The notes under the pieces: model-generated
What the model saw: the letters and a program-made list of their open reading frames with translations, nothing else
Databases searched by the model: none
What the model was told of the DNA's origin: nothing
Source of the DNA: a virus
Length of the DNA stretch: 46,468 nt
Virus record (IMG/VR): IMGVR_UViG_3300044981_000235
Span: 1-46,468 of that record
Strand: one strand, 5' to 3'
Program-made: the position numbers and the translations under genes
Shown: in pieces, positions 7,490-12,665 of the stretch
Layout of the letters: each line of letters begins with the position of its first letter
Numbering within the stretch: position 1 is the stretch's first letter

Positions 7490-7774
7490 TTGGAACGCCT
7501 ACCCAAAGCCGACAGGCTGAGTACAGCCGCGGCGGCATCGGCCCACGATTTGAACGACGAGCTGACCATCGTCCTCATCGGCATCGGCGAAGCCTTGCTG
7601 CGCATGGATGCCAACGCCCCCGCCAGAGTGTGGCTGCTCGCGGCGCAGAACGCGGCCTACCGGTGCGGCTGGAAAGTGGAAGGCTTGCTGCGGTACTCGC
7701 TCGCGCAGGGAGGCAAGTCGGGCGCGGCCACCTTCGAACAGTTGGTAGCGCTCGGAGAGGGTGCCATTGAGTAG
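7490..7774 (+). CDS. Stand-alone histidine-kinase-dimerisation-like mini-protein
   Basis: 94 residues from a TTG start. The stretch ASAHDLNDELTIVLIGIGEA (H19) resembles the phosphoacceptor H-box of sensor kinases (AHDxNNxLTxIxG). It is followed by a second helix (WLLAAQNAAYRCGWKVEGLL) that matches the usual hairpin partner. No ATPase domain (N, G1, G2 boxes) is present, so it cannot autophosphorylate alone. It may accept phosphate from a host kinase, dimerise with one, or be a decoy. The stop overlaps the start region of the next methyltransferase. The TTG start lies three bases after the KTSC stop. Confidence 0.62.
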   Translation: MERLPKADRLSTAAAASAHDLNDELTIVLIGIGEALLRMDANAPARVWLLAAQNAAYRCGWKVEGLLRYSLAQGGKSGAATFEQLVALGEGAIE

Positions 7775-8723
7775 AAGCAGAATTATTCGCGGCGACGTGC
7801 TGGCGGTCTGCCGGGAATTGCCAGCGGAATCATTCGATGCGTGCCTGTGCGATCCGCCGTATGGACTGGCCTTCATGGGCAAGAAGTGGGACCACGGCGT
7901 ACCCGACTCTGAGGTGTGGGCCGCGATCCTCCGCGTGTTGAAGCCCGGCGCGCCGTTGCTGGCCTTCGGAGGAACACGCACGCATCACCGGCTGATGTGC
8001 GCGATTGAAGATGCGGGATTTCTGCTGAGCGACACGCTGTGCTGGCTGCACGGGCAGGGATTCCCCAAGGGTCACTCGCAACTGAAACCGGCCTGGGAGC
8101 CGATTACGCTGGCCTGGAAAAAAGGGAAGAGGGTGCTGGCAATTGACGCGGCGCGGATCGGGGTCGCGGGCGGAACGGCGGTCGCGGGCGGAACGGCGGT
8201 CGCGGGCGGAACGGCGCGGCTATCAGTTCACGCTTATGGCGATGGCCTCAATGATCGACGCGGCACACCGGTTGACGGGCTTGGACGCTGGCCCGCCAAC
8301 CTCATCTTGGATGAAGAGTCAGCCGCCATGCTGGACCGGCAGAGCGGGATAGGTAAGAGTACGGCGCGCACCCGGCACAACGGCGATTTCAAGTCACCAG
8401 CCAAAGGCCACGAGCGGGCACACGATAGCGGCGGCCATGATGATTCCGGCGGCGCATCCCGCTTCTTTTATTGCGCTAAAGCCTCACGCTCGGAGAGAGG
8501 CGACGGGAACACGCACCCCACGGTGAAGCCGCTGAAGCTCACGGAGTATCTGGCGCGGCTGATCCTCCCGCCGGGCGACGAAACCCGGCTGCTGGTGCCC
8601 TTCGCTGGTTCAGGATCCGAGATGCTCGGCGCAAAACGCGCAGGGTGGAAGCACATCACCGGCATCGAGATATCGGCGGAGTACCGGCGCATTGCGGAAA
8701 AACGGATGGCGGTAGCATGTTAG
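7761..8723 (+). CDS. DNA amino-methyltransferase with DPPY motif
   Basis: About 320 residues from GTG 7761 (TTG 7767 also possible). The catalytic DPPYGLAFMGKKWD is near residue 31, and the SAM-binding FAGSGSEMLGAKRAGW near residue 285 with GIEISAEYRRIAEKRM behind it: a beta-order N6-adenine or N4-cytosine DNA methyltransferase. Midway there is an exact triplicated six-residue unit VAGGTA coded by three 18-base repeats (8163-8216). It overlaps the kinase-like gene by 14 bases at the start, and its end overlaps the LuxR gene start. No restriction partner. Probably anti-restriction or regulatory modification. Confidence 0.85.
   Translation: MPLSRSRIIRGDVLAVCRELPAESFDACLCDPPYGLAFMGKKWDHGVPDSEVWAAILRVLKPGAPLLAFGGTRTHHRLMCAIEDAGFLLSDTLCWLHGQGFPKGHSQLKPAWEPITLAWKKGKRVLAIDAARIGVAGGTAVAGGTAVAGGTARLSVHAYGDGLNDRRGTPVDGLGRWPANLILDEESAAMLDRQSGIGKSTARTRHNGDFKSPAKGHERAHDSGGHDDSGGASRFFYCAKASRSERGDGNTHPTVKPLKLTEYLARLILPPGDETRLLVPFAGSGSEMLGAKRAGWKHITGIEISAEYRRIAEKRMAVAC
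8163..8216 (+). repeat. Three exact 18-base tandem repeats inside the methyltransferase
   Basis: Unit GTCGCGGGCGGAACGGCG occurs at 8163, 8181 and 8199 without change and keeps the reading frame (VAGGTA three times). Identity across units implies recent slippage, so copy number may vary between relatives. Confidence 0.9.
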
Positions 8724-9786: not shown

Positions 9787-10097
9787 CGGCGACGGCCCTC
9801 AGCCTCGATCAGAAGTGCGCCCTGATGCGGGCGGAGCAGGCGCGTCTGCGCACGGCCCGCCGCAAGGCCACCGGCGCCAAGCGCACCAAGCGTAAGCCCG
9901 AGACCACCGAGACCACCCTTCTCGCCCGCACGAAGCGGACGGAACCCCCGGTGCGCCGGGATAGCGGCCACCAGATCGCGCGCATGCCCTGGCCCGAAGA
10001 CTACTTCGACGTGGCCTGGACCGGGGGCTCGTCGCTCGGGACAGCCTCGCGGGATTTCCGCAAGGCCCGCTATATCGCAGGCGACGTCGACCGATGA
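9783..10097 (+). CDS. Basic protein of 104 residues, unknown
   Basis: GTG start at 9783 overlaps the preceding TGA (GTGA); the product begins MTATALSLDQKCALMRAEQ. The middle is Lys/Arg/Thr-rich (RKATGAKRTKRKPETTETT), suggesting nucleic-acid contact; the C-terminus has PEDYFDVAWTGG. Its TGA overlaps the ATG of the downstream sigma factor (ATGA), so it may be co-regulated with, or modulate, that factor. Confidence 0.62.
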   Translation: MTATALSLDQKCALMRAEQARLRTARRKATGAKRTKRKPETTETTLLARTKRTEPPVRRDSGHQIARMPWPEDYFDVAWTGGSSLGTASRDFRKARYIAGDVDR

Positions 10098-10675
10098 CCG
10101 CACCCGATAACTTTCCGGCCCTGGTTTCGGGCATCCGCGCGGGCGAGCCAGACGCCATGGTGGACCTCTACCGCATCCTGAAAGGCCACGTGCGCCTGCA
10201 CCTCTGCCGCCAGCTTGGCGTCGAGGACCTGGAGGACCGCGTACACGACCTGTTCCTGACGCTGGTCGACGCCATCCAGCGGGGCGCGATACGGCAGCCG
10301 GAGCGGCTGATGGGCTACGTGTGGACCGTGGTCCGGCGCGCCGAGGCCAGCGGGGTGCGCGCGATGCTCGACGGCCGCCGCGCGGCAATCGCCGAGTGGA
10401 ACTGGGTACCCGACTGGCGGCCTAACCCGCAGGCCCAGACGCTCGACCGCGAGAGATCCCGGCTGCTGCGCCGCATTCTCGCCGGGATCGGCCGGCGCGA
10501 CCGCGAGATCCTGGTGCGCTTCTACCTGGAGGAGCAGACCCAGGCGCAGATCCGCCGGGAGATGGGACTGTCCCCGGCCCAGTTCCGCCTGAACAAGTCG
10601 CGGGCCAAGGCGCGGCTTGTGAAGCTGGCGCGGGCGCACCAGCGGAGCCGTGGTACGCTGCGCTCACGAGGATGA
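10094..10675 (+). CDS. ECF-like sigma-70-family factor
   Basis: 193 residues. A region-2-like part (DAMVDLYRILKGHVRLHLC, then DLEDRVHDLFLTLVDAI) is followed by a linker. Region 4 follows: GRRDREILVRFYLEEQTQAQ then IRREMGLSPAQFRLNKSRAK, a normal helix-turn-helix for -35 contact. This is the second sigma-like protein of the window and more ECF-like than the one at 5.9 kb. ATGA-coupled to the basic 104-residue protein, and its end overlaps the C5-methyltransferase start. Confidence 0.85.
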   Translation: MTAPDNFPALVSGIRAGEPDAMVDLYRILKGHVRLHLCRQLGVEDLEDRVHDLFLTLVDAIQRGAIRQPERLMGYVWTVVRRAEASGVRAMLDGRRAAIAEWNWVPDWRPNPQAQTLDRERSRLLRRILAGIGRRDREILVRFYLEEQTQAQIRREMGLSPAQFRLNKSRAKARLVKLARAHQRSRGTLRSRG

Positions 10676-12003
10676 CGAATGTGGATACACCTGCCCGCAC
10701 CATACTTTCCCTCTGCTCCGGATACGGCGGCCTCTCGCTCGGTCTTAGACTCGCTGACCCGGCGTTTGTCGACGTCTGTCACGTGGAACGCGAAGCCAGT
10801 GTCGCCCGCGTCCTGGTCGCGCGTATGCAGGATGGAACCTTGGACGACTGCCCAATTTGGAGCGATATCCAGACCTTCCGCGGCAAACCGTGGCGCGGCA
10901 GAATACATACGATCGCTGCCGGTTATCCATGCACGCCTTTTTCATGCGCCGGTAAGCAACTCGGCAAGAAAGACCCGCGCCACCTCTGGCCGCACGTCGC
11001 AAGGATCATCCGCGAAGTCCAGCCGCAGCAAGTCTTCCTCGAAAACGTGGACGCCCATCTACGACTCGGCTTCCATGAAGTCGCAGAAGAACTGGAAGCT
11101 ATGGATTACCGCGTTGCGTGCGGACTCTTTAGCGCGGAGGAAGTCGGCGCGCCACATAGAAGGCTCAGACTGTTCGCGCTGGCCCACCGTAAGGGGACAC
11201 GAGGTTGGAGAGTACCAGAATCAGACGGACGGGACGACGCAGCCGACCCTGAAGGACGTGATTCTGAGCTGGCAGACCCCGGCAACGGACTCCTTCCGAT
11301 CGCGCGGCGGGGAGAGAAAGGACGAACCGGGGCTCGATCAGCAAGCCCGCCAGTGGGCCACTCCCAACGCCTCGGAATCCAAGAGAGGATCGAACCGCAG
11401 GTACCTTTACGGAGACAACCGCACGGGGGAGATGCTGAAGATGCAGGCGCAGCAGTGGCGTACCCCGGACTCGCCAGGGGCGGGCGGACCTCGCAACCGC
11501 AAGGACTCGATAGGGCAGGGGCACCAGACGACCATCGCGGAACAAGCGGAACACTGGCCGACGCCGGAAGCCCACTTCAACGCTCGCGGGCCGGGCTTCT
11601 CAGCGACGGACAGCCATTACAAACCGCACGATCTGGCGACGAAAGTAGATCAGTGGCCGACGCCCCAATCGAAAGACACCCGCTCGGGGGTGACCGGCGA
11701 CATCAAAAAGAAGAACGCGCGGCCTCTCTGCGAAGTGGCCTCCCAATCTTCCCTCCAGGCCCGGCGGACCTTGAAGCCTGGAGCGAACTGCTCCACAGGC
11801 ACCCCGAACTCGCCCCGGCAGTTGAATCCGGCTTTCGTGGAACTGCTGATGGGACTGCCGGCGGGGTGGACCGACGCCGAAGCTCCCGCGTCCAGCGCCT
11901 GCGAGCTTTGGGTAACGGCGTCGTCCCAATGGTTGCGGCTTATGCTTATCTCAGCCTCTCCCGCGCGCTGGCTGACGGGAAGCGCATGAGGGCCGCGGCA
12001 TGA
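10672..12003 (+). CDS. C5-cytosine DNA methyltransferase with double-frame coding signal
   Basis: The N-terminal part in the frame of ATG 10672 shows motif I (LSLCSGYGGLSLGL, about 12-25), motif IV with catalytic Cys87 (AGYPCTPFSCAGK), motif VI (FLENVDAH, about 123-130) and motif VIII (GAPHRRLRLFALAH). The last 40 residues in that frame carry motif X (RLRALGNGVVPMVAAYAYLS). Between about 11195 and 11885 the +1 frame, also stop-free, looks more genuine: five W-x-TP boxes each preceded by a Q/L-rich segment, then LNPAFVELLMGLPAGWTD, a usual C-terminal signature of phage C5 enzymes. Third-position G+C also favours the +1 frame there. I therefore suspect two compensating frame changes. The ATG overlaps the preceding sigma gene, and the TGA overlaps the next ATG. 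Confidence 0.8.
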   Translation: MTNVDTPARTILSLCSGYGGLSLGLRLADPAFVDVCHVEREASVARVLVARMQDGTLDDCPIWSDIQTFRGKPWRGRIHTIAAGYPCTPFSCAGKQLGKKDPRHLWPHVARIIREVQPQQVFLENVDAHLRLGFHEVAEELEAMDYRVACGLFSAEEVGAPHRRLRLFALAHRKGTRGWRVPESDGRDDAADPEGRDSELADPGNGLLPIARRGEKGRTGARSASPPVGHSQRLGIQERIEPQVPLRRQPHGGDAEDAGAAVAYPGLARGGRTSQPQGLDRAGAPDDHRGTSGTLADAGSPLQRSRAGLLSDGQPLQTARSGDESRSVADAPIERHPLGGDRRHQKEERAASLRSGLPIFPPGPADLEAWSELLHRHPELAPAVESGFRGTADGTAGGVDRRRSSRVQRLRALGNGVVPMVAAYAYLSLSRALADGKRMRAAA

Positions 12004-12665
12004 CCCCGGCCCTGGCCCTGGCCCCTAACCCCCGTATTCTCAATCGGGTTGCATACCCCTGCGCCTCTATACCAGTGGAGGACACGTTCCCGCATCAATC
12101 TCCGGGTAGCCTTACCGGACTCCATGCGAACGGGTCAGTCTCAGCTACCGCGAATGCCGTAGGACCCCCCGGCTTAAACTGGTACGCCCTGTACGTCCGT
12201 ACCGGCTTCGAAACGCTGGTCGCCGACCGGCTCAATAACTGGGCCCACTTCGACGCCTTCTTCCCCTCCTTCAAGCACAAGGACCGGTTCCTGCGGAGAG
12301 TCGTGCGCAAGGCGTTCTTCCCCGGCTACGTCTTCGCCCGCTTCCCCTTGGAGAGACACGGCCTGGCGCTGGCTCTGCCGCACGTGCTCAGGATCGTAGG
12401 CTACGGCGAGCCGACGCCCTTGAAGGCTTCCGAGGTCGAGAGCGTGCGCATCGTCGGCCAGCTCCCGCGCGCCACGGCGGTGCAAGGACACGTGCAGAAG
12501 GGCGACAAGGTAATCATCCGCTGCGGGCCGCTCGCCGGCGTCGAGGCGGAAGTCGAGTACCGCAAGGGCAAGGCGCGGGTGGTGGTGATGGTCGATCCGC
12601 TCGGGCAGGCGCTCAGAGCGGAGGTCGATATCAACTGGCTGCGGGCGGAACCGAAGGAGAAATAG
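12000..12665 (+). CDS. NusG/UpxY-like transcription antitermination factor
   Basis: Up to 221 residues. From about residue 60 it is a clear NusG family protein: NGN domain (LNWYALYVRTGFETLVADRL ... RKAFFPGYVFARFPLERHGL) and KOW-type C-terminus (VQKGDKVIIRCGPLAGVEAE). The first 55 residues look non-conserved and include the 30-base motif. ATG 12000 overlaps the methyltransferase TGA (ATGA); GTG 12075, right after the motif, is an alternative start. NusG paralogues of this type allow polymerase to read through terminators in long operons. Here it sits just before the packaging genes, suggesting late-gene antitermination. Confidence 0.85.
   Translation: MTPALALAPNPRILNRVAYPCASIPVEDTFPHQSPGSLTGLHANGSVSATANAVGPPGLNWYALYVRTGFETLVADRLNNWAHFDAFFPSFKHKDRFLRRVVRKAFFPGYVFARFPLERHGLALALPHVLRIVGYGEPTPLKASEVESVRIVGQLPRATAVQGHVQKGDKVIIRCGPLAGVEAEVEYRKGKARVVVMVDPLGQALRAEVDINWLRAEPKEK
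12046..12075 (+). promoter_or_regulatory. Conserved 30-base motif, copy 2 (candidate phage promoter)
   Basis: Same sequence as 6689-6718 except two adjacent bases (AC for GG). It lies inside the weak N-terminal extension of the NusG-like gene and directly before its alternative GTG start. In both copies TATACC is the only -10-like element; a usual 17-base-spaced -35 is not evident. Confidence 0.45.

Follow-up and report, generated by a model that had tools for sequence, protein, structure and literature searches.

A phage cytosine-C5 methyltransferase locus with two almost fully overlapping genes, probably encoding a two-subunit enzyme

A viral DNA stretch of 46,468 nt (IMG/VR record IMGVR_UViG_3300044981_000235, here called the window) contains a C5-methyltransferase gene whose coding signal switches frame twice. 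Is the enzyme encoded by one of the two frames, by a protein that passes from one to the other, or by both frames as separate proteins? We propose that the locus very probably specifies a two-subunit DNA cytosine-C5 methyltransferase in the M.EcoHK31I arrangement, encoded by two almost fully overlapping genes, a reading based on comparative sequence analysis.

Two open frames and the motifs they carry

The first-pass annotation, made from the letters of the window, had described the ATG frame and the +1 frame as both open, with the catalytic motifs and LGNGVVP in the former and five W-x-TP boxes plus LNPAFVELLMGLPAGWTD in the latter. We found the same, with lengths of 443 aa and 436 aa, respectively, and refer to the two ORFs as alpha and beta. 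The features of the locus are as follows.

10668..10671, + strand: GAGG, possible Shine-Dalgarno sequence, 7 nt before ATG 10679 and directly abutting ATG 10672
10672..12003, + strand: alpha ORF, ATG frame, 443 aa, C5-methyltransferase motifs I-VIII and X; alternative start GTG 10681
10679..11989, + strand: beta ORF, +1 frame, 436 aa, entirely within alpha; N-terminal MWIHLP, fitting the conserved MxW[LI][YH]xP
10679..10683, + strand: ATGTG, beta ATG 10679 overlapping alpha-frame GTG 10681; possible dual initiation site
10672..11187, + strand: alpha-selected segment with motifs I-VIII, beta merely open (from substitution rates and stop counts)
11180..11749, + strand: beta-selected segment with W-x-T-P/V boxes, putative recognition units: a degenerate WPTV at 11180 and five W-x-TP boxes at 11270, 11354, 11456, 11555 and 11654
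11180..11749, + strand: alpha over the same segment, predicted disordered linker, merely kept open
11750..11821, + strand: island in which alpha (PPGPADLEAW...) is constrained too (from the substitution profile and AlphaFold2)
11822..11875, + strand: motif IX in beta, LNPAFVELLMGLPAGWTD, invariant in 52 beta proteins; phrog_1008
11882..12003, + strand: alpha-selected segment with motif X (LGNGVVP 11908) and C-terminal helix

The alpha assignment is based on the ORF and its motifs, a Pfam match and a predicted fold. Motifs I, IV (PC), VI (ENV), VIII and X, taken together as the test for a C5-methyltransferase, are all located in alpha (CSGYGG at 10714, PCTPFS at 10927, ENV at 11041, RLRLF at 11161, and LGNGVVP), and the match to Pfam DNA_methylase (PF00145, E 5e-29) is limited to residues 10-177. 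Motif IX is present in beta and absent from alpha. The beta sequence has the register of the canonical motif, L-x-P-x6-M-G-x-P, and its equivalence to that motif follows from this register and from phrog_1008, not from structure; its counterpart in M.HhaI is LHPRECARVMGYPDSY. In the comparison to phrog_1008 (PHROG, DNA methyltransferase), the profile is matched up to position 284 by beta (residues 258-403) and from position 291 by alpha (residues 403-431). This beta-then-alpha split indicates that the region before motif X is provided by beta, and motif X by alpha. No Rfam family was found in the locus region.

In the AlphaFold2 model of alpha (42 sequences), pLDDT exceeds 90 over most of residues 1-178 and is 96 in the block 421-430 adjoining motif X. 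It is <50 from about residue 179 to 353 and in much of the part overlapping motif IX; around the island, which has a helix at 367-376, it is 64-83. The poorly predicted parts coincide with the segments in which beta is the constrained frame (see below). Foldseek with this model retrieved M.HaeIII and M.HhaI over about 170 columns. Two results for beta count against a two-subunit enzyme: the beta middle alone (AlphaFold2, 52 homologues) gave no confident fold, and beta matched no Pfam family and found no relatives in a PDB profile search.

The locus is flanked by a sigma-region-4-like gene (10094-10675, under the Pfam cut-off) that ends over the alpha ATG and by a NusG-family protein gene (12000-12665, Pfam NusG 3e-12) whose first 4 nt overlap the end of alpha. 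Elsewhere in the window, at 7761-8723, there is a second DNA methyltransferase gene (Pfam N6_N4_Mtase 1e-16).

Recurrence of the arrangement and alternating selection

A search for related loci with the window proteins as queries returned almost no matches. The motif IX stretch was turned into a degenerate DNA pattern, blind to the alpha frame; on IMG/VR this pattern matched at least 120 stretches. The frame of motif X differs from that of motif IX in the same way in 116 out of 121 loci, namely the window and 120 viral contigs among the matches listed (96%, which is not a prevalence among all C5 enzymes since the viral and genome loci were found via the beta motif IX). The other 5 sampled loci are without a recognisable motif X, and none of the 121 carries motif X solely in the motif IX frame. 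Most of them keep alpha and beta both open for 500-1300 nt with the third frame closed. The same relation was observed in 32 of the 35 loci found in GTDB bacterial genomes. The natural overprinting considered in the first-pass annotation was correct; the attached idea of two enzyme subfamilies, each using one of the frames, is incomplete, since one locus keeps both open and each is selected in a different segment.

Among isolated phages, 17 of the 23 inspected have the nested arrangement (not a prevalence, since the 23 were hand-picked from matches of either frame), including epsilon15, E. coli K1H, PMG1, eiAU-183, PhiXhv-28, ABMM1, Bloom and HB10c2. Two of the 23, phiBT1 and GordTnk2, are divided like M.AquI, their motifs IX and X both being in the +1 frame; Darolandstone (1/23) has W-x-TP in the +1 frame and motif IX in frame 0, and 3/23 encode a single-chain enzyme. 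Existing annotations of such loci vary. In Streptomyces phage phiBT1 (about 1369-2400) the methyltransferase is annotated "may be inactive", and an unannotated +1 ORF with W-x-TP, IX and X comes next, an AquI-like split. The annotated CDS in Alfacinha1, Vibrio phage 1.236.O and PMG1 is beta, and the open catalytic alpha is unannotated. Both ORFs are annotated in K1H ("Mte8-like"), Bloom (Bloom_57) and PhiXhv-28.

We examined which frame is under selection from pairwise difference rates at alpha codon positions 1/2/3 (related pairs pooled, descriptive). These rates were.222/.163/.404 for motifs I-VI and.224/.143/.388 for motifs VI-VIII; the middle had.332/.144/.144, motif IX.322/.071/.120 and motif X.127/.109/.435. 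Since alpha position 1 is beta position 3, amino-acid selection moves from alpha to beta and back to alpha: substitutions follow alpha across motifs I-VIII, change to beta for the W-x-TP region and motif IX, and follow alpha again at motif X. Constraint is mixed in the island that precedes motif IX, where alpha reads PPGPxDxxxW. Resolved at 15 nt, the first switch occurs 30-45 nt past the motif VIII anchor, and the last one is sharp, ~60 nt past the start of the motif IX pattern. In the window the coding signal moves from alpha to beta near 11150-11190 and returns to alpha at ~11870-11880.

Codon statistics from a model trained on the other long ORFs of the window preferred the ATG frame at both ends of the gene and the +1 frame between 11152 and ~11870. 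The preference for the ATG frame in the N-terminal region, noticed by eye at the first pass, is thus reproduced up to about 11150, and the suspected switch points 11190 and 11885 match the substitution and codon profiles. The hand counts of third-position G+C over 11554-11691 proved exact (35/46 in the +1 frame, 26/46 in the ATG frame), and the reported overlay of WPTP on VADA is seen at 11654 over 11653, together with WPTP 11555 over LADA 11554. One frame conserved throughout and the other not, the pattern that the first-pass annotation had named as contrary to its reading, was found in neither direction because each frame is conserved solely in its own segment. With both frames open and each selected in a different segment, it would follow that each is translated and provides one of two complementary parts of a single enzyme.

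Stop-free unselected stretches and initiation of beta

The number of expected stops was estimated by shuffling the beta codons of the middle among synonyms. In the window middle there are 0 ATG-frame stops vs 3.8 expected (P 0.007), and the third frame has 11 vs 7.5 expected. The alpha middle of 95 loci contains 47 stops vs 423 expected, nearly all 47 in one clade, and that of the 34 loci with <55% G+C contains 0 vs 174 expected; the third frame in the middle, used as a control, has 769 vs 722 expected. In the pooled loci beta is nearly stop-free from ~codon -90 before motif VIII and at expectation farther upstream. Over motifs I-VIII, the 31 loci in which beta begins with M-x-W-[LI]-[YH]-x-P have 0 beta stops vs 42.2 expected, and 121 vs 149 in the third frame. 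Judged from these sequences, each frame is kept open even where its own amino acids are of little consequence. Open frames in both stretches are required for two full polypeptides but not for a single frameshifted protein, which argues for two polypeptides.

One clade (L011, L071, L119, L089, L144, L159 and L166) has as many as 14 stops in the alpha middle, with motifs I-VIII, beta and motif X intact, and this interrupted alpha middle counts against two subunits. An alpha-frame ATG is located ~130 nt before motif IX in this clade, with AGGGTG or AAGGTG ahead of it in several members, and may start a separate small motif X ORF. Another side observation concerns an (AG)n run that separates motif VIII from the W-x-TP part, lies about 170-210 nt ahead of motif IX and has 17 units in L016, 10 in L082 and 19 in L113. 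With 17 units the catalytic part falls in the third frame, and with 10 or 19 in the beta frame, joined to the W-x-TP part; phase variation of a phage methyltransferase is a possible interpretation of the run.

AT-richer loci have the beta start within alpha, at an internal ATG with a strong Shine-Dalgarno sequence, for example taaaggagttagctaATG; this ATG is usually located at codon -91 to -98 relative to motif VIII. Scoring took the best start no more than 15 codons from the upstream stop, and 24 out of 36 internal beta starts had a Shine-Dalgarno match of at least 5, vs 26 out of 433 other starts; taking the best of three random starts as a control gave a mean of 6.1 and a maximum of 16, vs the 24 seen. 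In the clade of the window an alpha-frame start lies within 7 nt of the beta start in 40/41 loci. The paired starts are ATGTG or GTGTG in 12/41 loci and ATGAATG or ATGGCATGG in others, and in L010, L036, L055 and L059 no alpha start other than the overlapping GTG was found in the 30 nt upstream. In E. coli, both overlapping frames can be initiated at AUGUG and GUGUG sites (Kohl et al., PMC9841429). The GAGG at 10668-10671 of the window is well spaced for 10679 and 10681 and touches ATG 10672, which overlaps the TGA of the upstream sigma-like gene. Translation of alpha may start either at GTG 10681 or, by coupling, at 10672. Neither the alpha nor the beta start of the window has a strong Shine-Dalgarno sequence, which counts against two subunits.

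The number of W-x-TP-like boxes varies from 0 to 8 per beta protein with a median spacing of 38 aa. Units more than 60% identical were found in enzymes whose catalytic regions are less than 60% identical, and at different positions. At the sequence level the W-x-TP units are mobile units of ~38 aa, and by analogy they probably serve beta as target-recognition modules.

Proposed enzyme, rival explanations and known systems

We propose that neighbouring start codons of one mRNA would give rise to alpha (frame 0) and beta (+1). Alpha would consist of the catalytic domain (I-VIII) and motif X, joined via a disordered linker of nearly indifferent residues; beta would contribute motif IX and the W-x-TP array, probably for target recognition, and its N-terminal ~165 residues would be little constrained. 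The two proteins would assemble into one enzyme that methylates the phage DNA, probably against host restriction. As far as the sequences go, both frames are kept open, selection alternates between them, relatives carry beta initiation signals, and the units are mobile. We infer that both proteins are made in the window phage and form an active complex in which beta has the recognition role.

It is very improbable in our judgment that a single polypeptide arises because ribosomes shift frame twice in a programmed manner, +1 after motif VIII and back again between IX and X. The order of constraint, N-terminal part in alpha, middle in beta, motif X in alpha, is what one expects of a single protein, single-chain relatives exist, and the L011 clade combines an alpha middle full of stops with intact I-VIII, beta and X. 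Such a protein needs no open alpha middle, yet only 47 of 423 expected stops are present there, nor does it need an open beta over I-VIII with its own Shine-Dalgarno sequence and start; an unsystematic look at the junctions noticed no slippery site. Double frameshifting is disfavored because both unconstrained stretches stay open and beta has starts. That beta is translated as a separate overprinted protein unrelated to the methyltransferase, such as a regulator or anti-restriction protein, is very improbable. Its low-confidence fold and lack of a Pfam or PDB match fit that idea. Against it, motif IX is in register and rightly placed before the motif X of an alpha that has no motif IX, phrog_1008 spans beta and the alpha motif X, and the same region is fused to I-VIII or X in single-chain and AquI-like relatives. 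Two compensating indels, by sequencing error or in a decaying gene, had also been offered at the first pass; they would explain the frame switch itself and nothing more. The same phase is found in phages, prophages, metagenomes and bacterial genomes of very different G+C, and both frames are selected; this recurrence refutes the explanation, whose chance we regard as negligible. A scheme with one real frame and a fossil in the other was ruled out by the alternating constraint and the openness.

If the two-subunit assignment is right, an organisation known from very few restriction-modification enzymes appears frequent among phage cytosine methyltransferases. Public annotation gives sometimes alpha, sometimes beta, and seldom both, and such enzymes would seem dead if a single recoded ORF were cloned alone. 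Long overlaps with segment-wise constraint in each frame are rare; since each frame is simply open outside the segment in which it is constrained, the cost of the overlap is measurable. The arrangement suggests an exchangeable specificity subunit for escape from host restriction. More tentatively, we can imagine a phage-wide class in which a catalytic subunit and a swappable, possibly multi-target specificity subunit start from one AUGUG/GUGUG-like site and use the same nucleotides, each frame paying with an unconstrained stretch. Such pairs would be among the longest and commonest nested genes in phages, and module exchange in one frame would alter specificity without closing the other.

Literature searches found no report of an overlapping two-subunit class in phages. 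The same nested +1 ORF is annotated as K1H ORF28 ("Mte8-like"), Bloom_57 and in PhiXhv-28, and these were never tied to a two-subunit enzyme in the sources found. The main text of a frame-transition survey (PMC3711429) does not mention DNA cytosine methyltransferases.

Multispecific C5-methyltransferases are known from the SPbeta group of Bacillus phages (Trautner et al. 1996, cited in PMC2413257 and PMC12707154). The window locus resembles them in that several short exchangeable units lie between motifs VIII and IX. The Bacillus phage enzymes are single chains; the window array would be on a separately encoded, overlapping subunit, with a specificity role that we propose for it.

M.EcoHK31I has the recognition sequence YGGCCR, and its beta gene lies inside alpha in another frame and encodes about 176 aa. 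The window has the same nesting of a smaller gene in a larger one (10679-11989 inside 10672-12003), but its overlap is almost complete, with a beta of 436 aa and an alpha of 443 aa. The larger polypeptide of M.EcoHK31I carries motifs I-VIII, X and the predicted recognition domain, and the smaller one motif IX only; M.AquI (CYCGRG) is naturally split after motif VIII into two polypeptides, with IX and X in the smaller one (reviewed in PMC3404938; original paper on M.EcoHK31I, Lee, Kam and Shaw 1995). Unlike M.AquI, the window has motif X in the alpha frame and under alpha selection. As in M.EcoHK31I, motifs I-VIII and X are on the large chain and motif IX is on a putative second one, a likeness of arrangement; the second chain is supported by reading frame and selection. 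The recognition domain is predicted in alpha of M.EcoHK31I (PMC3404938) and proposed in beta here, which counts against our proposal; the alpha middle of the window is unconstrained and predicted disordered where beta is constrained. The window locus further differs from M.EcoHK31I in its paired starts and in the variable W-x-TP array in beta. By the features compared, as the review gives them, the phage form fits the M.EcoHK31I arrangement and not that of M.AquI.
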